A stretch of 50,675 bases of DNA from NCBI GenBank assembly GCA_019637095.1, contig JAHBWG010000073.1, positions 1 through 50,675 on the forward strand, read 5' to 3'. This stretch comes from Sandaracinaceae bacterium (GTDB lineage: Bacteria; Myxococcota_A; Polyangia; Polyangiales; Sandaracinaceae). The notes under the pieces were generated by a model. It worked only from the letters and a program-made list of their open reading frames with translations. It searched no databases and had not been told where the DNA came from. The position numbers were made by a program, and so were the translations under genes. Positions 6,308-47,932 of the stretch are shown here, in pieces; within the stretch, counting starts at the first letter, position 1, and every line of letters starts with the position of its first letter.

Positions 6308-7840
6308 ATGGGACCGACGGATGTGGAGATCGTGGCCAGCGTCATGGACGCGCTGCCGGTCGGGATCTGGGTCGCGCGCGCGCCGGGCGGGGAGCTCGTC
6401 TACGCGAACGCGCGCTTCGCCGAGATCATGGGGACGGGACCGCGCGCCGACGTCGCCGTGGGGGAGTACGCGGCGCCCTACGCCATCTACGATCGCGACG
6501 GGAACCTCTACGCGGAGGAGCGGATGCCGTTCGTCCGCGCGCTCGCGGCCCGCGCGACCGTGACGGTCGACGACATCGTCATCCACCGGCCCGACGGCGG
6601 ACGCGCGGCGATCCGCGCCTACGCCCGCCCGATGTTCGACGGCGACACGATCACGCACGTCATCATCGCCTTCCTCGACATCACGCGCGAGGTCGAGGCC
6701 GAGGCGCGCCTGCGGCGCGCGCAGCGGATGGAGTCGATCGGCAGCCTCGCGCGCGGCATCGCGCACGACTTCAACAACCTCTTGTCGGTGACGCGCACGA
6801 TCGCCTCGACGCTCCTCTTGTCCGAGGCCGACGCGGCGCGGCGCGAGGAGCTGCTCGCGATCGACGCGGCGGCCGAGAGCGGGGTGCGGCTGACGCGCTC
6901 GCTCCTCGCGTTCGCGGGTCGGGAGAAGGCGCGCGCGGAGCCGCTGTCCCCGAACGAGCTCGTCGAGCGGCTCGCCGTCCTGTTGTCCCGCGCGCTCGAC
7001 CGGCGCGTCGTGCTGCGCACCGAGCTCGCGTCCGCGCGACACGTCGAGGGGGATCGCGCGCAGCTCGAGCAGGTCGTGATGAACCTCGTGCTCAACGCCC
7101 GCGACGCGCTCGCGGGCCCGGGGGTCATCACGATCCGCACGCGCGACGAGGCAGAGCACGTGGTGCTCGAGGTCGACGACACCGGGCCCGGCGTGCCGCC
7201 CGCGATCCGCGACCGCGTGTTCGAGCCGTACTTCACGACCAAGCACGAGGGGCTGCCCAGCGCGGGGGGGATCGGGCTCGCGACGGTGTACGGCATCGTC
7301 GAGGCGCACCTCGGCACCGTCGAGGTCGCCGACGCGCCCGGCGGCGGCGCGCGGTTTCAGGTGCGGCTCCCCTCGCTCGACGGCATCGTGCGTTCGGCGA
7401 GCGCGCCGGAGCCGGGCGCCGTCGTGCGCGGCGAGGGCCTGATCTTGGTGGTCGACGACGAGCCGGCGGTCCGCACCTGGACGCAGCACGCGCTCGAGGA
7501 GCTCGGCTTCCGTGTCCTCACCGCGCCGGACGGCGAGGCGGCGCTCGCGTCGCTCGAGGCGCACGCCGCCGAGCTCGCGCTCGTGGTGCTCGATCTGAGC
7601 ATGCCGCGGATCGATGGGCGCGCGACCTACCTCGCGCTCCGCGCGCGTCGCCCGGATCTCAAGGTGCTGCTGACCTCGGGCTACGCGCTCGACGAGGAGG
7701 CGCGCGCGCTGCTCGCGCTCGGGGTCGATGGCTTCCTGCCCAAGCCGTTCGGCATCAGCCAGCTCTCCGCGGCGGTCGCGAGCGTGGTCGGTCGCGCGCG
7801 CACGTCACGGGGCGAACACGTCGCGCCACGCGAGCCGTGA
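6308..7840 (+). CDS. Hybrid sensor histidine kinase (PAS-HisKA-HATPase-REC)
   Basis: 510 residues, no membrane segments, so a cytoplasmic sensor. A PAS domain lies at about 8-125 (MDALPVGIWVA, VYANARFAEIMG, FLDITREVEAEARL). The dimerisation/phosphoacceptor helix carries AHDFNNLL with His153. The ATPase domain shows the N box (VVMNLVLNARDA), G1 (DDTGPGVPP) and G2 (GIGLATVYGIV). A receiver domain follows (ILVVDDEPAVRTW; phospho-Asp in LVVLDLSMPR; Lys in PKPFG). This is the HDFNN subclass common in myxobacteria. Its stop lies inside the end of the opposing gene (36-bp tail-to-tail overlap). No dedicated response regulator is adjacent. Confidence 0.93.
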   Translation: MGPTDVEIVASVMDALPVGIWVARAPGGELVYANARFAEIMGTGPRADVAVGEYAAPYAIYDRDGNLYAEERMPFVRALAARATVTVDDIVIHRPDGGRAAIRAYARPMFDGDTITHVIIAFLDITREVEAEARLRRAQRMESIGSLARGIAHDFNNLLSVTRTIASTLLLSEADAARREELLAIDAAAESGVRLTRSLLAFAGREKARAEPLSPNELVERLAVLLSRALDRRVVLRTELASARHVEGDRAQLEQVVMNLVLNARDALAGPGVITIRTRDEAEHVVLEVDDTGPGVPPAIRDRVFEPYFTTKHEGLPSAGGIGLATVYGIVEAHLGTVEVADAPGGGARFQVRLPSLDGIVRSASAPEPGAVVRGEGLILVVDDEPAVRTWTQHALEELGFRVLTAPDGEAALASLEAHAAELALVVLDLSMPRIDGRATYLALRARRPDLKVLLTSGYALDEEARALLALGVDGFLPKPFGISQLSAAVASVVGRARTSRGEHVAPREP

Positions 7841-8620
7841 GGGGACCGCGCCGCGCGTGACGACCCAACGCGTCGCCTGGACGAGCAGCTCCGGGCGCGC
7901 GGGGTCCATCGTCGGGTTCGGGCTGAACAAGAGGACGCGCCCCTCCCGGTAGCGGGCGGCGACGACCGCGGCGGTCCCCGGCATCTCGCCCGGGTGCGTG
8001 TCGTAGCGCGGCCAGTGGACGTCGGTCTCGAACGTGGCGAGCGGCACGAACGGCGCGAGCCCGGCGGCGCGCGCCGGCGCGATCAGCGGCCCGTTCTCGT
8101 AGTGCAGGACGACGGGCGCGGTCTCTCCGCGAGCGCGGAGCGCGGCCGCGCGCGTGCCTCGCCGCCACCTCTCGCCGGTCGCGTTCTCCGCCGCGACGAT
8201 CCCGATCTTGTGGAACTCCGCCGGGCCCTGCATCGCGAGGTAGGCCCCCGCGCAGATCCCCACGTAGCCGCCCCCGTCGGCGACGAAGCGGCGCACGCGC
8301 GCGCGGCCCTCCTCGCCGAGGAGCTGGCCCTGCACGGAGCCGCGGCCGCCCGTGAAGAGCACCGCGCGCGCGCCCTCGAGCGCGCTGCCGTCGCGGAACG
8401 CCTCCGGCCCCACGACGCGGACCTCGAAGCCGCCCGCCGCCTCGTAGGCCTCGACCGCGGTGCGCAGCGCGGTCGGCCCGACCCCGCGCGCCTCGAGCAC
8501 GACGACGCGCACGCGCTCGGGCTGCGCAAACGCGGCGCCCGCGAGCGCGGCGGCCGCGAGCGCGGTGAGCGCGGTGAGGCAGGTCCAGCGCTCGAGGCGC
8601 GTGCTGCGGCGCGGAGTCAT
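7805..8620 (-). CDS. Exported BPL_N / glutamine amidotransferase-like protein
   Basis: 271 residues. A signal peptide occupies the first 32 or so residues. The rest matches the class I amidotransferase-like fold found at the N-terminus of some biotin-protein ligases (BPL_N): strand VRVVVLEARGVG, AVLFTGGRGSV, a nucleophile elbow GGGYVGICAGAYLAM with Cys123, HYENGPL, and a closing FSPNPTMDPARPELL. Family members of this exported type are poorly studied; some are predicted hydrolases or sugar-binding proteins. The signal peptide argues against a biotin-ligase role. It overlaps the histidine kinase tail-to-tail by 36 bp. A GAGGAG ribosome site lies just upstream of the ATG. Confidence 0.78.
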   Translation of the reverse strand: MTPRRSTRLERWTCLTALTALAAAALAGAAFAQPERVRVVVLEARGVGPTALRTAVEAYEAAGGFEVRVVGPEAFRDGSALEGARAVLFTGGRGSVQGQLLGEEGRARVRRFVADGGGYVGICAGAYLAMQGPAEFHKIGIVAAENATGERWRRGTRAAALRARGETAPVVLHYENGPLIAPARAAGLAPFVPLATFETDVHWPRYDTHPGEMPGTAAVVAARYREGRVLLFSPNPTMDPARPELLVQATRWVVTRGAVPSRLAWRDVFAP

Positions 8621-11282: not shown

Positions 11283-12638
11283 ATGCCGCGCGTCCTGATC
11301 GTCGACGACGAGGAGAACATCCGGCTGGTCTTGCGGACCATGCTCGGCAAGCACGGCTACCTCGTCGAGGTCGCCTCGAGCGGCGAGGAGGCGCTCGCCG
11401 CCGCGGCGCGCACGCCGCCCGACTACGTGATCGCGGATGTCCGCATGTCGGGCATGAGCGGCATCGAGCTCGCTCGCGCCCTCGGTGCCCTCGAGTCACC
11501 GCCGACGGTGATCGTGATGAGCGCGTACGGCTCGGTGGAGCTCGCGCTCGAGGCGATGAAGGCGGGCGCCTACGACTACGTCAGCAAGCCCTTCAAGCAG
11601 GACGAGGTGCTCCTCGCGCTGCGCAAGGCCGAGGAGCGCGAGGCGCTCAAGCGCGAGAACCGCGCGCTCAAGGCCGAGCTCGCCGAGCGCTCGCGCTTCG
11701 CGGGGATGATCGGCCGCAGCGAGGCGATGCGCGCGGTGTTCCGCACGATCGAGAAGGCCGCCGCGTTCTCCACGACGGTGCTGATCCAGGGCGAGAGCGG
11801 CGTCGGCAAGGAGCTCGTCGCGCGCGCGCTCCACGATCGCGGGCCGCGCGCCGCGGCGCCGTTCGTCGCGGTGAACTGCGGCGCGATCCCCGAGTCGCTG
11901 ATCGAGTCGGAGCTGTTCGGCCACAAGCGCGGCGCGTTCACCGACGCCTCGAGCGACAAGCCGGGCCTGTTCGAGGAGGCGAGCGGCGGCACGCTCTTCC
12001 TGGACGAGATCGGCGAGCTGCCGCTCGGCACGCAGGTCAAGCTCCTGCGGGTGCTGCAGGAGGGGACGCTCCGTCGCCTCGGCGAGACGCGCGACCGCAA
12101 CGTCGACGTCCGGGTGGTCGCGGCGACGGTGCGCGTGCTCAAGGACGAGGTCGACGCCGGGCGGTTCCGCGAGGACCTCTACTACCGCCTCAACGTCCTG
12201 CCGCTCCACGTGCCGCCGCTCCGGCAGCGCAAGGAGGACCTCTCCCTGCTCATCGATCACTTCATGGAGCGCACCAACCGGCGCCTCGGCACCGCGATCC
12301 GCGGCATCGACGCGCGCGCCCACAAGCTCATGCTCGCCTACCACTGGCCCGGCAACGTGCGCGAGCTCGAGAACGTGCTCGAGCGCGCCATCGTGCTCGC
12401 GGACGGGGACATCCTCTCCGAGACGGACCTGCCCGAGCGCCTGCGCGAGCCCGACCCGGTGCAGGCGGTGCTCGCGACGGGCGAGCTGTCGATCAAGAAG
12501 ACGCAGCGGTACATCGAGGAGACGTTGATCCGCCGCGCGCTCGAGGAGACCGGCGGCAACCGCACCAAGGCGAGCAAGCTGCTCGAGATCTCGCACCGCG
12601 CCCTGCTCTACAAGATCAAGGACTACGGGCTCGGGTGA
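11283..12638 (+). CDS. NtrC-family sigma-54 activator, GAFTDA variant
   Basis: 451 residues. Domain order is a receiver (VLIVDDEEN, phospho-Asp52, Lys in SKPF about 101-104), a linker coiled coil (about 112-138), an AAA+ domain and a Fis-type helix-turn-helix (NRTKASKLLEISHRALLYKIK). Walker A is GESGVGKE (170-177) and Walker B GGTLFLDEIGE (235-245). The sigma-54 contact loop, normally GAFTGA, is GAFTDA (217-222), with Asp221 for Gly. The protein should act as a phosphorylation-controlled ATPase opening sigma-54 promoters, but the loop change may alter sigma-54 contact. The sensor kinase is not adjacent. It ends 12 nt from the convergent biotinyl-protein gene. Confidence 0.93.
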   Translation: MPRVLIVDDEENIRLVLRTMLGKHGYLVEVASSGEEALAAAARTPPDYVIADVRMSGMSGIELARALGALESPPTVIVMSAYGSVELALEAMKAGAYDYVSKPFKQDEVLLALRKAEEREALKRENRALKAELAERSRFAGMIGRSEAMRAVFRTIEKAAAFSTTVLIQGESGVGKELVARALHDRGPRAAAPFVAVNCGAIPESLIESELFGHKRGAFTDASSDKPGLFEEASGGTLFLDEIGELPLGTQVKLLRVLQEGTLRRLGETRDRNVDVRVVAATVRVLKDEVDAGRFREDLYYRLNVLPLHVPPLRQRKEDLSLLIDHFMERTNRRLGTAIRGIDARAHKLMLAYHWPGNVRELENVLERAIVLADGDILSETDLPERLREPDPVQAVLATGELSIKKTQRYIEETLIRRALEETGGNRTKASKLLEISHRALLYKIKDYGLG

Positions 12639-36382: not shown

Positions 36383-37027
36383 TCAGGCGGCGAGGACCTG
36401 GTGGAGCTGCCGGACGGCCGCCGTCTGGATCTGACAGACCCGCGCCGCGCTCACCCCGAGGCGCTCGCCGATCTCGCCGAGCGAGGCGCCCTCGAACAGG
36501 CGCGCCTCGAGGGTGAGCTTCGCCGGGCCGGGGAGGGTGTCGAGCAGCGAACGGAGCCTCGCGCGCTGTCGGCTCTCGTGCGCCGCCTCGTCGGGCGCGA
36601 TCGCCGCTGCGTCCGCGAGCTGCACCGCCGGCTCGCGCGGGCCGCACGCGTCGATCGAGACGACGTGGCGGGCGCCGATCGCCCGGCACCGCTCGACCTC
36701 CTCGGGCGCGAGGTCGTCGCCCTCGCGCGCGAGCAGCCGCATCTCGCCGCGCGTCCGGGGATCGAGGCGGCGGATCGCGTCGATCATGCGCTGGCGCACG
36801 CGGACCCGCACCCACGTCGACTCCGGCACACCGTAGCCCTCGAACGTCGCGAGCGCGTCGAGCACCGCGATCCGGCCCTCGGCCACGAGGTCCTCGTGGT
36901 CGAGCCCGCGGCCGGCGCGCGCCAGCGGCTCGAGCCGCCGGGCGAGCCCGCGCACGAGCGGCTCGTACTTGGTCAGCGCCGCCTTCGCCTCGCCTTCGCT
37001 CCACGGGGTGTTCGTGTGCTCGCTCAT
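36383..37027 (-). CDS. FliA-like alternative sigma factor
   Basis: 214 residues. Region 2 is at about 20-100 (YEPLVRGLARRLEPLA, DHEDLVAEGRIAVLDALATFE, TWVRVRVRQRMIDAIRRLD) and region 4 at about 155-212 (LPGPAKLTLEARLFEGASLGEIG..., GVSAARVCQIQTAAVRQL). The order and the R-x-R-x-R-MIDAxR segment resemble sigma-28/FliA/WhiG-type factors, with a short, poorly conserved region 3. It should direct RNA polymerase to a special promoter set. No anti-sigma factor or flagellar gene is near. A GGAGGGA ribosome site precedes the ATG, and a sigma-54-like element lies just upstream. It is divergent from the c-di-GMP protein at 37267. Confidence 0.86.
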   Translation of the reverse strand: MSEHTNTPWSEGEAKAALTKYEPLVRGLARRLEPLARAGRGLDHEDLVAEGRIAVLDALATFEGYGVPESTWVRVRVRQRMIDAIRRLDPRTRGEMRLLAREGDDLAPEEVERCRAIGARHVVSIDACGPREPAVQLADAAAIAPDEAAHESRQRARLRSLLDTLPGPAKLTLEARLFEGASLGEIGERLGVSAARVCQIQTAAVRQLHQVLAA

Positions 37028-37266: not shown

Positions 37267-39633
37267 ATGTTCGCTCAAGCGCTCCCTCCGCCCCCGTCCG
37301 CTGGCTCGTTCGAGTCCAGCGCCCCCCCTGCGGCCGCCACCGATGGCGTCCTCTTCGTCGCCCGGTTCGGGCTCGAGGAGCGCCGGCGCTTCGAGCGCGC
37401 GTGCCGGCGCGCCGGCCACCGCGCGATCGTCGTCGGCGCCGCGAGCGTCTGCCGCGAGCTGCTCGAGTCCGACGGCATCGCGCCCGCGTGCGTGTTCGTC
37501 GACCCCGAGCTCGGCGGCGCGCGCGAGCTCGTCGCGTGGATCCGCGGGGCGCCGCGGTGGTGCGCGCTCTCGGTGATCGCGCTCGTGCCTCACCCGGCGG
37601 AGGGAGCCTACGTCCACGCGCACGCGCTCGGGGTCGACGACGTGACGCTGCGCTCCGACCTCGGGACGATCACGCGGCGGCTCGGCGCGCTCGACGGCCG
37701 GCCGGCGCGCCCCTCGGCGCCGACGCGGGGTCGGGCGTTCGTCGCCCACCCGGACGGGGAGCGCCGCCGCGTCGTCGGGCGCGTCCTGCACCAGGCGGGC
37801 TTCGAGGTAGCGTTCGCCAGCGACGCCGCCGACCTCCTGCGAGGCGTCGAGGCGTGCGCGGACACGGCGCTCGTCGCGATCGCCGAGGAGCTCGCGCGCC
37901 CCGGGTCGGCCCTGGTCGGCGAGGTGCGCGGCGTCGCGGGCAAGGCCGACCTCCCGGTCGTGATCCTCGACATCGAGTCGGGGACCGAGCACGCGGGCGG
38001 CACGCTCGGTCGCCTCGGCGTCGTGGCCGACGCGGCCGCGCCCGACAACCTCCTGTTCGTCGTCAACGAGCTCGGCGCCCACGCCTCCGCCGAGCAGCGC
38101 GCCTCGCAGCGCCTGCTCTACTCCACGCTCTGCGCCTTCCGCCGCGCCCACGAGGTGAGCCCCGAGTTCGGGCTCACCTACAACATCAGCCGCGACGGCA
38201 TCTACGTGCGTACGATCGATCCTCCCGCGATCGGGACGAGCGTCTGGCTGGAGCTGCGCCCTCCCGGGACGACGGCGATCGTGCACCTGCGCGCGCAGGT
38301 CGTCTGGACGCGTCGTGCGGCGGACCGAGGGCACGCGACCGTGCCGTCCGGCTTCGCCGTGCAGGTCATCGAGGCCGAGTGTCCGCCCGCCGACCTCGAG
38401 CGCTACCGCGCCGCGTACCACGCCTTCCGCGAGGAGCCGCGACCCTACGTGGTCGAGCCCACCGCCGAAGCGCCGTCGACGCGGCCGAGCAGCCCGAGCG
38501 GGCTGCCGCGGATCCTCGTCGCCGACGACGACGAGCGCACCCTCGGCGTCTACCGGCGCCTCTTGGCGGGCCGCTACGAGATCGTGACGGCGAGCGATGG
38601 CGTCGACGCGATCGCCAAGTTCTCGCGCGGCCGCTTCGACGTGGTCCTGACCGACATCGGCATGCCGGGCGCCAATGGGCTCGAGGTGCTCCGGAGGGTC
38701 CACGATCTGCGTCCGGCGGTGCCCGTCATCATGGCGACGGGCGCACCGACGATCGACTCCGCGATCGAGGCGGTCGAGCACGGCGCGTTCCGGTACCTCA
38801 CCAAGCCGTTCGACGCCGAGACCCTGGAGCGGACCCTCGAGCGCGCGGTCCAGATCGGCCGGCTCGCGCGGCTCAAGCAGGACGCGCTGCACCTGCACTC
38901 GGACTCGCTCGGCCGGCCGACCGCCGCCGAGGAGCGCGAGGCGTTCGAGCGGGCCATCGATGGCGTGTACGTCGTCTACCAGCCGATCGTCTCGCTGCGT
39001 GACCGCAACGTCTTCGGCTACGAGGCGCTGGTCCGCTCGACGGAGCCGACGCTGCCGCACCCGGGCGCGCTCTTCGCCGCGGCCGAGCGGCTCGGCGAGC
39101 TCGACACCCTCGGTCGCGCCATCCGCGCGTGCGCGATCGCTCCGTTCGCGGACCGCGCAGACCGGCTCCTCTTGAACCTCCACCCGCGCGATCTCCTCGA
39201 CGACGAGCTCTTCGACACCACCTCACCGCTCGCCGACATCGCGCACCGCGTGACGCTCGAGATCACCGAGCGGGCCTCGCTCGAGGGGATCCCGAACAGC
39301 GTCCGGCGCATCGCCGATCTGCGCGCGATGGGGTTCACGATCGCGGTCGACGACATCGGAGCGGGGTACGCGGGGCTCACGAGCTTCGCGCAGCTCGAGC
39401 CCGACGTCGCCAAGCTCGACATGTCCCTCGTGCGCGACATCCACCGCGTCCCCACCAAGCAGCGGCTCGTGCGCTCGTTCGCCGAGGTGTGTGACGACCT
39501 CGGCATCGTGCTCGTGTGTGAAGGCGTCGAGACCGAGGAGGAGCGCGACTGCCTCGTCGAGCTGGGGTGCGACGTGCTCCAAGGCTACCTCTTCGCGCGC
39601 CCCGACCGGGCCCTGATCGTGCCCGAGCTCTGA
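37267..39633 (+). CDS. REC-like/REC-like/PilZ/REC/EAL c-di-GMP phosphodiesterase
   Basis: 788 residues. Two degenerate receiver-like domains come first (about 27-140 and 155-270). A PilZ domain follows (about 275-372) with c-di-GMP motifs RASQR (278-282) and NISRDG (306-311). Next is a canonical receiver (415-535: ILVADDDE, phospho-Asp463, Lys in TKPF). Last is an EAL domain (560-788) with EAL (586-588), Asn637, Glu665, DD (695-696), Lys716, Glu752 and Gln772, all residues expected for cleavage of c-di-GMP to pGpG. It may be a phosphodiesterase tuned by both phosphorylation and c-di-GMP binding. It is divergent from the sigma factor, and a GAGG lies near the ATG. Confidence 0.92.
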   Translation: MFAQALPPPPSAGSFESSAPPAAATDGVLFVARFGLEERRRFERACRRAGHRAIVVGAASVCRELLESDGIAPACVFVDPELGGARELVAWIRGAPRWCALSVIALVPHPAEGAYVHAHALGVDDVTLRSDLGTITRRLGALDGRPARPSAPTRGRAFVAHPDGERRRVVGRVLHQAGFEVAFASDAADLLRGVEACADTALVAIAEELARPGSALVGEVRGVAGKADLPVVILDIESGTEHAGGTLGRLGVVADAAAPDNLLFVVNELGAHASAEQRASQRLLYSTLCAFRRAHEVSPEFGLTYNISRDGIYVRTIDPPAIGTSVWLELRPPGTTAIVHLRAQVVWTRRAADRGHATVPSGFAVQVIEAECPPADLERYRAAYHAFREEPRPYVVEPTAEAPSTRPSSPSGLPRILVADDDERTLGVYRRLLAGRYEIVTASDGVDAIAKFSRGRFDVVLTDIGMPGANGLEVLRRVHDLRPAVPVIMATGAPTIDSAIEAVEHGAFRYLTKPFDAETLERTLERAVQIGRLARLKQDALHLHSDSLGRPTAAEEREAFERAIDGVYVVYQPIVSLRDRNVFGYEALVRSTEPTLPHPGALFAAAERLGELDTLGRAIRACAIAPFADRADRLLLNLHPRDLLDDELFDTTSPLADIAHRVTLEITERASLEGIPNSVRRIADLRAMGFTIAVDDIGAGYAGLTSFAQLEPDVAKLDMSLVRDIHRVPTKQRLVRSFAEVCDDLGIVLVCEGVETEEERDCLVELGCDVLQGYLFARPDRALIVPEL

Positions 39634-39744
39634 TGGCGCGCCGAGGCCCTCTGCGCGGGATGTAGGGGGCTCGGGGTTGCAATCGGCGCCGTGAGCGGGT
39701 TCACTCGTCGTTCGAGCCCGCGGGAGTACGCGAGAGGAGTTCGG

Positions 39745-42147
39745 GTGGACGTGTTCCGATCGCCGGTGCCGAGCAGTGAGCCTCCGGACGGCGTGCTCGA
39801 CCACCTCCTCGAGGGCTTCCAGGTCATCGGGCGAGACTACCGCTACCTCTACGTGAACGAGGCGGTCGCGCGGCAGGGGAAGAGCACGCGGGCGCACCTC
39901 CTCGGTCGCACGATGCACGAGTGCTACCCAGGCATCGACGCGACCCCGATGTTCGCGGTCCTCTCTGGGGTGATGGAGACGCGCGCGGCCGCCGCGATGG
40001 AGAACGAGTTCACGTTCCCCGACGGCACGCGAGGATGGTTCGAGCTCCGCTTCGAGCCGGTGCCCGAGGGGGTCGTCATCCTCTCGGTCGACATCACCGA
40101 GCGCAAGCTGACCGAGGAGCGGTTGCGACGCTCGATGCGGGCGCTCGCCACCCTCAGCCGGTGCAATCGGACGCTGGTGCACGCCGGCGACGAGAGCGCG
40201 TTCCGCCGCGACCTGTGCGAGCTCCTCGTCGAGACCGGCGGCTATCCCCTCGCGGGGATCTTCGGGTCCAGTGGCGACGGCGCGCTCGCGCTCCTCGAGC
40301 GCGCAGGAGAGCCGGCGGTGCACCTCGCCTCGGAGCGCGCCGCCGAGCTCGCGCGCGACGCGTCGGTCAGCTCGCGCGAGGTCATCGCGCACGCCTCGAG
40401 CGGCGAGCCGGGGCCGCGCTCGCTCATCGCGCTCCCGGTCGGCGCCTGCGCACGTCACGGCGTGCTCGTCGTCGCGGCGTCCGAGCCCGAGGCGTTCGAC
40501 GGCGACGAGGCAGACCTCCTCACGGAGGTCGCGCTCGACCTCGCGCACGGCATCGAGACGCTGCGCGACCGGCGGCGCCTCGAGCGCTCGATGGAGGAGC
40601 TCGCGCGGCTCGAGGCGCGCAGCCGCGCCATCTTCGACCACCTGCCGATCCCGGCGTACGTCTTCCGGCGCGACGGTGAGCGGTTCGTGCTCGACGAGCT
40701 GAACCAGGCGGCGCTCGACCTCGTCGCCGACCCCGAGACCGCCTTGCGAGGGCGTGGGCCCGAGGAGGTCGCCGAGGGCGTGCCGCACGCGAGCGACGAT
40801 CTCGTCCACGCCGCGCTGTCCCGCGCGGTCGTGCGCCGCGAGCTCGACTGCCGGCTCCCGGGCACCACGCGCACGCGGCGCGTCGCGCTCACGTACGGCC
40901 GCGTCCCGCCGGACCGGGTGATCTTGCACGCCCGCGACGTGACCGATCAGCGGCGCACCGAGGCGCAGCTCGCGGGCGCGCAGCGGCTCGACGCGATCGG
41001 GCGGCTCGCCGGCGGCGCGGCGCACGACTTCAACAACCTGCTGAGCGTCATCCTCACCTACGCCGAGCTCGCGGCGGAGCCGCTGCCGGCGAGCAGCCCG
41101 ATCCGCGAGGACCTCGAGCAGATCCACGCCGCCGCGCAGCGCGCCGCGACGCTCACGCGCGGGCTCCTCGCGTTCAGCCGGCGCCAGATCCTGGAGCCGC
41201 GCGTCGTCCACCTCGACGAGGTGATCGACGGCATCGTACCGATGCTCCGGCGGCTGCTCCGCGAGGACATCGACGTGCGAGTCCACCCGTGCCGCGCGCT
41301 CGGCCACGTGATGGCGGATCCCGGGCAGATCGAGCAGGTGATCATGAACCTCGCCGTGAACGCCCGCGACGCGATGCCGCTCGGCGGGTCGCTGACGATC
41401 GAGACGGCGAACGCCGAGCTCGACGAGGACTACGCGGCGCGGCACGTCGGCGTCCAGCCGGGGCGCTACGTCTGCGTGGCGGTCACGGACACCGGCGTCG
41501 GGATGGACGCCGCGACGTGCGAGCGCATCTTCGAACCGTTCTTCACGACCAAGGAGATCGGGCAGGGGACGGGGCTCGGGCTCGCCGTCGTGTTCGGGAT
41601 CGTCAAGCAGAGCGGCGGCAACATCTGGGTCTACAGCGAGCCCGGTCGCGGGACGACCTTCAAGGTCTACCTCCCGCGGGTCGACGAGGCGCTCGAGCCG
41701 GCGTCGGCGCAGGCGCCCCGACCTGCGCTGCGGGGGGGCGAGACGATCCTCCTGGTCGAGGACGAGCCCGCGGTGCGCCGCGCGGCCGAGCGCATCCTTC
41801 GCGCGGCCGGCTATCGGGTGCTCGTCGCGGGCGGCGGCGCCGAGGCGCTCGCGCTCGCGTCGGCGGAGCCGGGCGAGATCCACCTGCTGCTCACCGACGT
41901 CGTGATGCCGGAGATGAGCGGCGGTGAGCTCGCGACGCGCTTCGGTCGGGCGCGACCGAGCGCGCGCGTGCTTTACTCGTCGGGCTACACGGACAACGCG
42001 ATCGTCCATCACGGCGTGCTCGACCCCGGCAAGGAGTTCCTCGCGAAGCCGTTCTCCGCGGTTGAGCTCACCCGCAAGGTGCGCGCGGTGCTCGACGGCG
42101 AGACGGGCGACGGCTCGTCGGGAGCGCGCGGGGGGGGCGAGCCTTGA
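39745..42147 (+). CDS. Hybrid sensor histidine kinase (PAS-GAF-PAS-HisKA-HATPase-REC)
   Basis: 800 residues from GTG 39745, chosen for the AGGAG 5 nt upstream; an in-frame GTG at 39691 would add 18 residues. A first PAS domain (about 15-125, with YLYVNEAVARQGKS, ILSVDITERKLTE) is followed by a GAF-like domain (about 140-285) and a second PAS (about 300-410). The phosphoacceptor helix has GRLAGGAAHDFNNLLS with His427. ATPase motifs are IMNLAVNARDAMP, DTGVGM and GTGLGLAVVFGIVKQ. A receiver ends the protein (LLVEDEPA, Asp in LLTDVVMPEMSG, Lys in AKPF). There is no membrane segment. The sigma-54 activator 50 nt downstream is its likely partner. Confidence 0.93.
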   Translation: MDVFRSPVPSSEPPDGVLDHLLEGFQVIGRDYRYLYVNEAVARQGKSTRAHLLGRTMHECYPGIDATPMFAVLSGVMETRAAAAMENEFTFPDGTRGWFELRFEPVPEGVVILSVDITERKLTEERLRRSMRALATLSRCNRTLVHAGDESAFRRDLCELLVETGGYPLAGIFGSSGDGALALLERAGEPAVHLASERAAELARDASVSSREVIAHASSGEPGPRSLIALPVGACARHGVLVVAASEPEAFDGDEADLLTEVALDLAHGIETLRDRRRLERSMEELARLEARSRAIFDHLPIPAYVFRRDGERFVLDELNQAALDLVADPETALRGRGPEEVAEGVPHASDDLVHAALSRAVVRRELDCRLPGTTRTRRVALTYGRVPPDRVILHARDVTDQRRTEAQLAGAQRLDAIGRLAGGAAHDFNNLLSVILTYAELAAEPLPASSPIREDLEQIHAAAQRAATLTRGLLAFSRRQILEPRVVHLDEVIDGIVPMLRRLLREDIDVRVHPCRALGHVMADPGQIEQVIMNLAVNARDAMPLGGSLTIETANAELDEDYAARHVGVQPGRYVCVAVTDTGVGMDAATCERIFEPFFTTKEIGQGTGLGLAVVFGIVKQSGGNIWVYSEPGRGTTFKVYLPRVDEALEPASAQAPRPALRGGETILLVEDEPAVRRAAERILRAAGYRVLVAGGGAEALALASAEPGEIHLLLTDVVMPEMSGGELATRFGRARPSARVLYSSGYTDNAIVHHGVLDPGKEFLAKPFSAVELTRKVRAVLDGETGDGSSGARGGGEP

Positions 42148-42197: not shown

Positions 42198-43568
<1,371 letters not shown>

Positions 43569-46064: not shown

Positions 46065-47932
46065 CCCGGCTGCTGGTCGTCGCGCCGCGCGCGACGTCGC
46101 GTGGCGCGCTCCGAGAGCTCCTCCCGCCGGAGCACGGGATCGTGGAGGCGGCGACCGCCGACGAGGCGCTCACCGCGAGCGCCGACGCGGGGCTCGACGC
46201 GGCCTTCGTGAGCGAGGAGACCCCCGACGTCGAGCGCCTGCTCGGCGCGCTGCGGCAGCGAGGGATCGGGACCGTCGTGGTCGGCGCCGCCGACGCGAGC
46301 GCCGTGGTTCGTCACCTGCGCGCGGGCGCGGACGACTGCGTCGACGCGGCGAACGCCGATCGGGGCGCGCTCACACGGGCGCTGTCGACGGCCGTCGAGC
46401 GCACGCTCGCGGCGCGCGAGACCGCCCTGATCCGACGGCTCTGGGAGCGGATGCCGCTCGGCGTGATCGTCCTCGAGGCGTGCGGGGAGCCGGACGGGTT
46501 GCGCGTCGCGTACCAGAACCAGGCCGGGCGCGCGGTCCGCGCCTCGGGCGTCGCGGCAGAGGGCGTGATCCCGGGGATGTCGCCCACCGCGCTCCGAGAG
46601 ATCACGGGCCGCGTGCTCCTCTCCGGCGAGCCGGCGCGGCTCTCGCCGATCGAGCTCGACGCCACGAGCGACGGCGCGCCGGCGCGGGCGTACGAGGCGC
46701 ACATCTCGCGGCTCGACGGGCGCAGCGTGTTGATCCTGCTCGAGGACGTGACGGAGCTGCTCGTGACGCGCCGCCAGCTCGACGCGGCGAGCCGCATGGA
46801 GGCGATCGGGCGGCTCGCGGGCGGTGTCGCGCACGACTTCAACAACATGCTCACCGTGATCTCGGGGCACGCCGGGTTCATGCGGGAGGGGCTCGCGCCC
46901 GACGACCCGAGCCACGAGGACGCGAGCGCGATCCTCGACGCGGCGTCGCGCTCGGCGGAGCTCACGCGGCAGCTCCTCGCGTTCAGCCGCCGGCAGATCC
47001 GCGCGCCGCGCGTGCTCGAGCTCAACGGGACCGTCGAGTCGATCCAGCCGCTGCTCCGCCGCATCATCGGCGAGCACATCTCGCTCACGACCCGGCTCGA
47101 CGCGCGCGCGGGCGCGATCGAGGCGGACCCGGCGCAGATCGAGCAAGTGCTCATGAACCTCGCGGTGAACGCCCGCGACGCCATGCCCCGCGGCGGCTCG
47201 CTGCAGGTCGAGACGCTGCGGCGCGTGGTCCGCGAGGCGTTCCGACCCGGGAGCTTCGCAGTCCAGCCGGGCGAGTACGCCGAGCTGCGCGTGATCGACG
47301 AGGGGGTGGGGATGAGCCCCGAGACGCTCGCGCGCATGTTCGAGCCGTTCTTCACCACCAAGAGCAAGGACGAGGGCACGGGCCTCGGGCTCGCGACGGT
47401 CTACGGCATCGTCAAGCAGAGCAACGGCTGCGTGTGGGCGGAGAGCGCGCTCGGGACGGGGACGACCTTCTTCGTGCTGTTCCCGCGCGTCGAGGCGGCG
47501 CCGACGGCGATGCCGGCGCTCGGGCCGCGGGACACGCTCCCCGGCGGCGAGACGATCCTCTTCGTGGAGGACGAGCGCCTCGTGCGGCGCGCGATCCGCC
47601 GCATCCTCGAGACGGCCGGATACCGCGTCGTCGAGGCGGCGCTTCCGTCGCAGGCGCTCGCGGTGGACGTGCCCGTCGACCTCGTGCTCACCGACATCGT
47701 CATGCCCGAGATGAGCGGGCGGGAGCTCGCGGCGCGGCTCGCGGCGCGTGTCCCGCGCGCGCGGGTGCTCTTCACGTCGGGCTACACGATGGACGAGGCG
47801 GGCGGTGGTGACGTCCTCACGCCCGGGACACCGTTCATCGCGAAGCCGTTCACGCGGCAGGCGCTCCTCGAGGCCGTCCACGAGGCGCTCTCGAAGGGTC
47901 CGGCGCTCGAGGATCTCGCGGGCCGCGGATGA
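46061..47932 (+). CDS. Hybrid sensor histidine kinase with degenerate receiver
   Basis: 623 residues. GTG 46061 is chosen because the GGGGAGG ends 10 nt upstream; the GTG at 46052 would be too close. The first 115 residues fold like a receiver (TRLLVVAPR, GIGTVVVGAADAS) but lack the acidic pocket, so it is a pseudo-receiver. A PAS-like domain covers about 128-240, then HisKA with GGVAHDFNNML (His258), ATPase motifs LMNLAVNARDAMP, DEGVGM and GTGLGLATVYGIVKQ, and a full receiver (FVEDERLV, Asp in LVLTDIVMPEMSG, Lys in AKPF). It is cytoplasmic. Its stop overlaps the start of the LuxR-type regulator gene (ATGA), so the two are a pair. Confidence 0.92.
   Translation: MTRLLVVAPRATSRGALRELLPPEHGIVEAATADEALTASADAGLDAAFVSEETPDVERLLGALRQRGIGTVVVGAADASAVVRHLRAGADDCVDAANADRGALTRALSTAVERTLAARETALIRRLWERMPLGVIVLEACGEPDGLRVAYQNQAGRAVRASGVAAEGVIPGMSPTALREITGRVLLSGEPARLSPIELDATSDGAPARAYEAHISRLDGRSVLILLEDVTELLVTRRQLDAASRMEAIGRLAGGVAHDFNNMLTVISGHAGFMREGLAPDDPSHEDASAILDAASRSAELTRQLLAFSRRQIRAPRVLELNGTVESIQPLLRRIIGEHISLTTRLDARAGAIEADPAQIEQVLMNLAVNARDAMPRGGSLQVETLRRVVREAFRPGSFAVQPGEYAELRVIDEGVGMSPETLARMFEPFFTTKSKDEGTGLGLATVYGIVKQSNGCVWAESALGTGTTFFVLFPRVEAAPTAMPALGPRDTLPGGETILFVEDERLVRRAIRRILETAGYRVVEAALPSQALAVDVPVDLVLTDIVMPEMSGRELAARLAARVPRARVLFTSGYTMDEAGGGDVLTPGTPFIAKPFTRQALLEAVHEALSKGPALEDLAGRG

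Follow-up and report, generated by a model that had tools for sequence, protein, structure and literature searches.

Our analysis of a 50,675-nucleotide stretch of DNA from a Sandaracinaceae bacterium (the window) revealed a 788-residue protein in which two degenerate receiver domains, a PilZ domain, an intact receiver, and an EAL domain form a single chain (REC-REC-PilZ-REC-EAL, with the receivers numbered REC1 to REC3 in that order). The domains and their intact motifs, the order of the neighboring genes, the recurrence of the whole chain in two further genomes, and the existence of its parts as separate genes elsewhere are all evident at the sequence level. We tentatively propose, as a reading that falls somewhat short of probable, that the protein is a two-input phosphodiesterase of cyclic dimeric guanosine monophosphate (c-di-GMP), which would be switched by phosphorylation and tuned by its own substrate, with c-di-GMP on the PilZ domain raising EAL activity. 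The combination is rare, and all of its component parts are of known kinds.

Domains and motifs of the 788-residue protein

Over the two receiver-like domains that precede the PilZ domain, no Pfam model matched, and the Pfam receiver model recognizes 14 of the 28 members of a set of homologs of the REC-REC-PilZ portion (the front half). A profile built from these 28 homologs matches solved receivers at positions 13–116 (PhoP, 2pkx; E = 8.9e-8) and 129–237 (CheY, 4hnr; E = 2.8e-8), and hhalign, run against aligned intact receivers, covers only the second front receiver, at a probability of 98.1%. An earlier note on this DNA, made from the sequence alone, had read two receiver-like domains in this region; these matches bear it out, with the addition that both domains are degenerate. 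REC1 carries an aspartate at the phospho-site position (Asp79; Asp in 49 of 82 aligned homologs) and lacks the acidic pair and the lysine of a phosphorylatable receiver, and REC2, with Ala206 at the phospho-site position (Asp in 6 of the 82), does not qualify as one either. REC3 retains the acidic pair D420/D421, the phospho-aspartate D463 within the segment VLTDIGMPG (residues 460–468), and the lysine K513. Given the degeneracy of REC1 and REC2, only REC3, through Asp463, looks able to respond to phosphorylation, and the note's suggestion of such a response is thereby narrowed to REC3, which is intact and has a kinase gene 57 bp downstream of its own gene.

The PilZ domain scores above its Pfam cut-off and carries both signatures of a canonical c-di-GMP receptor, RxxxR and (D/N)xSxxG, at the residues where the note had placed them. 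Only 15 columns of the 28-row alignment are invariant, those of R278 and R282 among them, and the invariance of these two arginines across the 82 homologs argues that ligand binding matters, without indicating its sign; the presence of the PilZ domain itself in these copies is expected, since the query that found them included it. The domain is likely, by prediction, a c-di-GMP sensor. Aligned with relatives and with RocR, the EAL domain keeps E586, N637, E665, E668, D695, D696, K716, E752, and Q772, which we take to be the residues needed by an active EAL phosphodiesterase; the catalytic residues that the note had ascribed to the REC-EAL pair are thus all retained, and the domain is predicted to be, and likely is, equipped as an active c-di-GMP phosphodiesterase. 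A proline/serine-rich linker (about residues 387–412) separates PilZ from REC3. Third-position G+C of the 788-residue frame is 0.95, which, together with the occurrence of the same single-frame chain in two other genomes, excludes a chance frame; a chance fusion is ruled out by the single frame and the same two genomes.

Occurrence of the chain and its parts in related genomes

How common is this architecture? We searched 183 genomes of the order with the whole protein, scoring the best candidates (at most five per genome); the survey addressed only the exact order REC-REC-PilZ-REC-EAL. Matches at E ≤ 1e-20 occur in 173 of the 183 genomes and, among the matches listed, are mostly REC-EAL proteins alone. 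The full chain was found, again among the matches listed, in three genomes: the bacterium's own and two others (G046 and G047), where the match, at 45–46% identity, stays in one frame, beginning at residue 84 or 90 and ending at residue 784 or 782. The domain order, which the earlier note had judged unusual, is accordingly rare rather than unique: G046 and G047 rule out a unique architecture, and a count of three in 183 led us to reject a common one. Across 317 genomes of the class, the order included (at most the three best candidates scored per genome), there was no full-length match outside the order at E ≤ 1e-112, a threshold at which a diverged fusion could be missed. A search for related loci in the genome contigs returned 12 loci whose matches were confined to EAL or receiver domains, and the domain order was not met in our searches of the open-licence PMC literature. 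The bacterium's own genome (9.25 Mb, 197 contigs) holds 29 PilZ, 5 EAL, and 15 GGDEF matches, and comparison of their places puts PilZ and EAL in one gene once, for 1 of the 29 and 1 of the 5. The protein seems to have arisen by fusion of components that are, for the most part, encoded separately in related bacteria.

REC-REC-PilZ also exists as an independent module. The 183 order genomes were searched with this half, the best candidates (at most nine per genome) being scored, which gave 112 rows; matches at E ≤ 1e-5 occur in 86 of the genomes, the weaker ones being partial. Our check for fusions covered the 83 rows with E ≤ 3.0e-25 except for one 105-residue frame (G045:C371), the 29 weaker rows being left out; the rows covered are the 82 aligned copies, from 73 genomes. 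No long extension follows the front half in 63 of the 82 (61 stop inside the stretch and two run off a contig end), three continue into REC-EAL, and 16, all of family f11, run on in frame for 191–636 residues. The 16 tails are rich in proline, alanine, and serine, and each contains a hydrophobic stretch of 19 residues (mean hydropathy at least 1.65) that may span the membrane; 15 end in a short C-terminal domain that appears similar by eye. Pfam returned no match above its cut-off on the 16 tails and one weak PEGA match below it. Perhaps these copies are a putative family of membrane-anchored c-di-GMP receptors. The presence of two distinct types of tail on the front half is consistent with an input module. 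When 377 sampled genomes of the phylum were searched, the front half matched at E ≤ 1e-8 in 41, ten of them outside the order, and EAL was not found in the ten stretches outside the order (one place per genome, the second place of G312 being left out, with several matches partial). The tailed copies lie at loci L142, L157, L160, L149, L122, L117, L146, L131, L129, L153, L112, L145, L083, L124, L159, and L114. One further genome (G059) has two REC-REC-PilZ genes close together on opposite strands (L109, 4961–6046, plus strand, and 7082–8140, minus strand).

Separate EAL genes recur near unfused front-half genes. We counted neighbors in 78 loci around unfused front-half copies (941 kb), with the expected count taken from each genome's own EAL number (at most the 14 best candidates scored per genome). 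An EAL match lies in eight of the 78 loci against 0.73 expected, and in seven when the L101 fragment is dropped; the corresponding probabilities (6e-7 for at least eight, and 8e-6) are too small because the genomes are related. For families f1, f4, f7, and f9, an EAL match lies near the front-half gene in 7 of 23 loci (six without L101), where 0.18 are expected. In one genome a REC-REC-PilZ gene adjoins a separate EAL gene on the same strand (G026, L100). In another, genes for an NtrC-type regulator, REC-REC-PilZ, REC-EAL, and a hybrid kinase follow one another on one strand, a split version with the same parts (G016, L104), and in a third the order is REC-REC-PilZ, hybrid kinase, REC-EAL (G021, L108). 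GGDEF genes are found in such positions as well: a front-half gene is followed by a cNMP-GGDEF gene and a REC-GGDEF gene in G054 and by a REC-GGDEF gene in G058, and in G047 (L106 5505–6947, minus strand) the fused gene is followed on the same strand by an FHA-GGDEF gene (the called frames overlap by 4 bp) and a single-domain PilZ gene.

The trees speak to the history of the joining. In the tree of front halves, the three fused copies form one group (90/66), which stands beside four copies labeled as near an EAL gene (91/92), one of them the weak L101. The REC-EAL tree, of 35 rows, places the fused copies in a seven-row branch (94/86) that also holds the REC-EAL neighbor of G026, and does not resolve them as one group; the label for proximity to a front-half gene in this tree ("nearN") missed L029, L039, and L042, which are the same near genes under other locus ids. 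A history in which one old gene pair was later fused is weakened by this lack of resolution and by the scatter of the REC-EAL neighbors over the tree. A single fusion event is allowed by the trees.

A proposed mechanism and its alternatives

In the mechanism that we propose, the neighboring hybrid kinase would phosphorylate Asp463, and the phosphorylated receiver would set the activity of the EAL domain, as happens in REC-EAL proteins of the RocR kind. The front half would bind c-di-GMP through R278, R282, and the NxSxxG loop, and at high c-di-GMP the occupied PilZ domain would raise EAL activity across the linker, so that the enzyme would clamp the local pool of its own substrate by hydrolysis. 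Activation of the EAL domain by PilZ, as opposed to restraint, is a guess, preferred since it gives a simple negative feedback. In favor of the proposal are the retained EAL residues and the match of the REC-EAL portion to RocR, the intact REC3, the conservation of both PilZ motifs among the front-half homologs, the kinase and regulator genes on the same strand, the split version in G016, the excess of EAL matches near separate front-half genes, the GGDEF neighbors in G054, G058, and G047, the second type of tail in 16 copies, and the GGDEF, EAL, and PilZ matches in the bacterium's own genome.

Several observations weigh against this proposal. The 63 front-half copies that lack a long extension indicate that this half serves a purpose even when no EAL domain is attached. 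Of the eight EAL matches, the one in L101 is a fragment of 40 bits that lies at the border of its stretch, and in family f11 there is no excess at all (an EAL match near the front-half gene in 1 of 55 loci, against 0.54 expected). The REC-EALs found near front-half genes sit on several branches of their tree, which means that there is no single conserved pair. An AlphaFold model made without an alignment was unusable (mean predicted local distance difference test score, pLDDT, 38.4). Finally, PixA of Myxococcus xanthus is described as binding c-di-GMP in vitro, with a motility function that did not need binding under the conditions tested (PMC8316039).

The main rival explanation makes the protein a receptor with a built-in eraser. 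The PilZ half would be an output that docks on a partner, and the REC-EAL portion would clear c-di-GMP there and keep the response brief, with information passing from PilZ to the partner and not from PilZ to the EAL domain. We consider this somewhat unlikely, although the same untailed majority of front-half copies implies an independent function for the half, EAL was not found around the ten more distant matches outside the order, and some phosphodiesterases have been described as c-di-GMP effectors (PMC5052742). A candidate partner protein for the PilZ half was not identified, however; the neighboring kinase and regulator are just as compatible with control of the enzyme; and the 16 copies joined to a hydrophobic segment, 15 of them with a small C-terminal domain, resemble control of an attached output.

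It is also conceivable, if improbable, that PilZ binds c-di-GMP and either restrains the EAL domain or merely holds the protein at a site, with no activation by substrate. The proline/serine-rich linker may be flexible, and sequence does not reveal the sign of the coupling; the two invariant arginines, for their part, favor ligand binding and leave that sign aside. Least probable by far is an inactive EAL domain serving as a second receptor for c-di-GMP, in the manner of FimX or LapD: known receptors of this type include some whose EAL domain is degenerate (PMC10333796), but here the residues expected to bind metal and to take part in catalysis are retained.

The locus and its relation to known systems

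The feature coordinates are collected in Table 1, together with the candidate partner kinase and the regulator that follow the phosphodiesterase gene. Divergent from this gene lies one for a sigma-70-family factor of 214 residues with regions 2 and 4 (36383–37027, minus strand). The window is rich in two-component genes, with more histidine kinase and NtrC-type matches at 6644–7396, 11283–12476, and 46703–47506.

Table 1. Features of the phosphodiesterase gene and its downstream neighbors (positions in the window).
Feature	Position	Strand	Basis
REC(degenerate)-REC(degenerate)-PilZ-REC-EAL protein, 788 residues	37267–39633	+	Single open frame, ATG start
Degenerate receiver 1 (REC1), about residues 27–140	37345–37686	+	Profile match to 2pkx, residue counts
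Degenerate receiver 2 (REC2), about residues 153–270	37723–38076	+	hhalign 98.1%, 4hnr 2.8e-8
PilZ domain, residues 276–365	38092–38361	+	Pfam PF07238, 31.2 bits (cut-off 22.5)
RxxxR motif, RASQR, residues 278–282 (R278, R282)	38098–38112	+	Both Arg in 82 of 82 aligned homologs
NxSxxG motif, NISRDG, residues 306–311	38182–38199	+	[DN]xSxxG in 78 of 82 homologs
Intact receiver REC3, residues 416–524 (D420/D421, D463, T491, K513)	38512–38838	+	Pfam PF00072, 93 bits (cut-off 30.2), alignment
EAL domain, residues 558–779	38938–39603	+	Pfam PF00563, 165.5 bits (cut-off 31.3), alignments
Hybrid histidine kinase (PAS, weak GAF, HisKA, HATPase, REC), candidate partner kinase	39691–42147	+	Domain search; 57 bp after the phosphodiesterase gene
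NtrC-type response regulator (REC, sigma-54 AAA+, Fis-type helix-turn-helix)	42198–43568	+	Domain search; 50 bp after the hybrid kinase gene

Nearest in concept, by analogy, are perhaps the trigger phosphodiesterases PdeR and PdeL of Escherichia coli, which to our knowledge lack a PilZ domain; the 788-residue protein differs from them in its separate predicted receptor site. Both are described as active phosphodiesterases that are also c-di-GMP-sensing effectors (PMC5052742). The best solved match to our protein, over both domains of the REC-EAL portion, is RocR of the Roc1 system of Pseudomonas aeruginosa (3sy8). The Roc1 locus is reported to encode also the unorthodox sensor RocS1 and the DNA-binding regulator RocA1 (PMC3083521), so that both loci combine one sensor, one DNA-binding regulator, and one REC-EAL regulator. 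Unlike our protein, RocR has neither front receivers nor a PilZ domain, and the DNA-binding regulator in the window is of the NtrC type. PvrR is likewise a REC-EAL phosphodiesterase response regulator, but the match to its model (NCBIfam NF052596) reaches 102 bits against a cut-off of 580, which leaves our protein outside the PvrR equivalog, and the model, at 398 positions, is too short for the PilZ half. PixA resembles our protein in joining PilZ, with canonical binding motifs, to a phosphorylatable receiver (PMC8316039); PixA differs in having its PilZ domain at the N terminus and in having no EAL domain and no front receivers. A PilZ domain attached to an EAL domain has already been named as a kind of combination, with reference to earlier work, in another study (PMC7063779).

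What might this arrangement mean for the family? In a broader picture that we regard as possible but rather doubtful, REC-REC-PilZ would be widespread in the order with several outputs, acting alone, through a membrane-spanning PEGA-like tail, or through REC-EAL. One clade would work with separate REC-EALs, and the fused chain would be that complex in a single protein, gated by phosphorylation and sensing its substrate, which would give a local set point for c-di-GMP. How an enzyme of c-di-GMP turnover is tied to one receptor, and not to the pool of the whole cell, is a standing question. Here three genomes combine a predicted receptor and a predicted eraser in a single chain, and relatives encode the two in separate genes that are sometimes neighbors, which makes a direct test possible.
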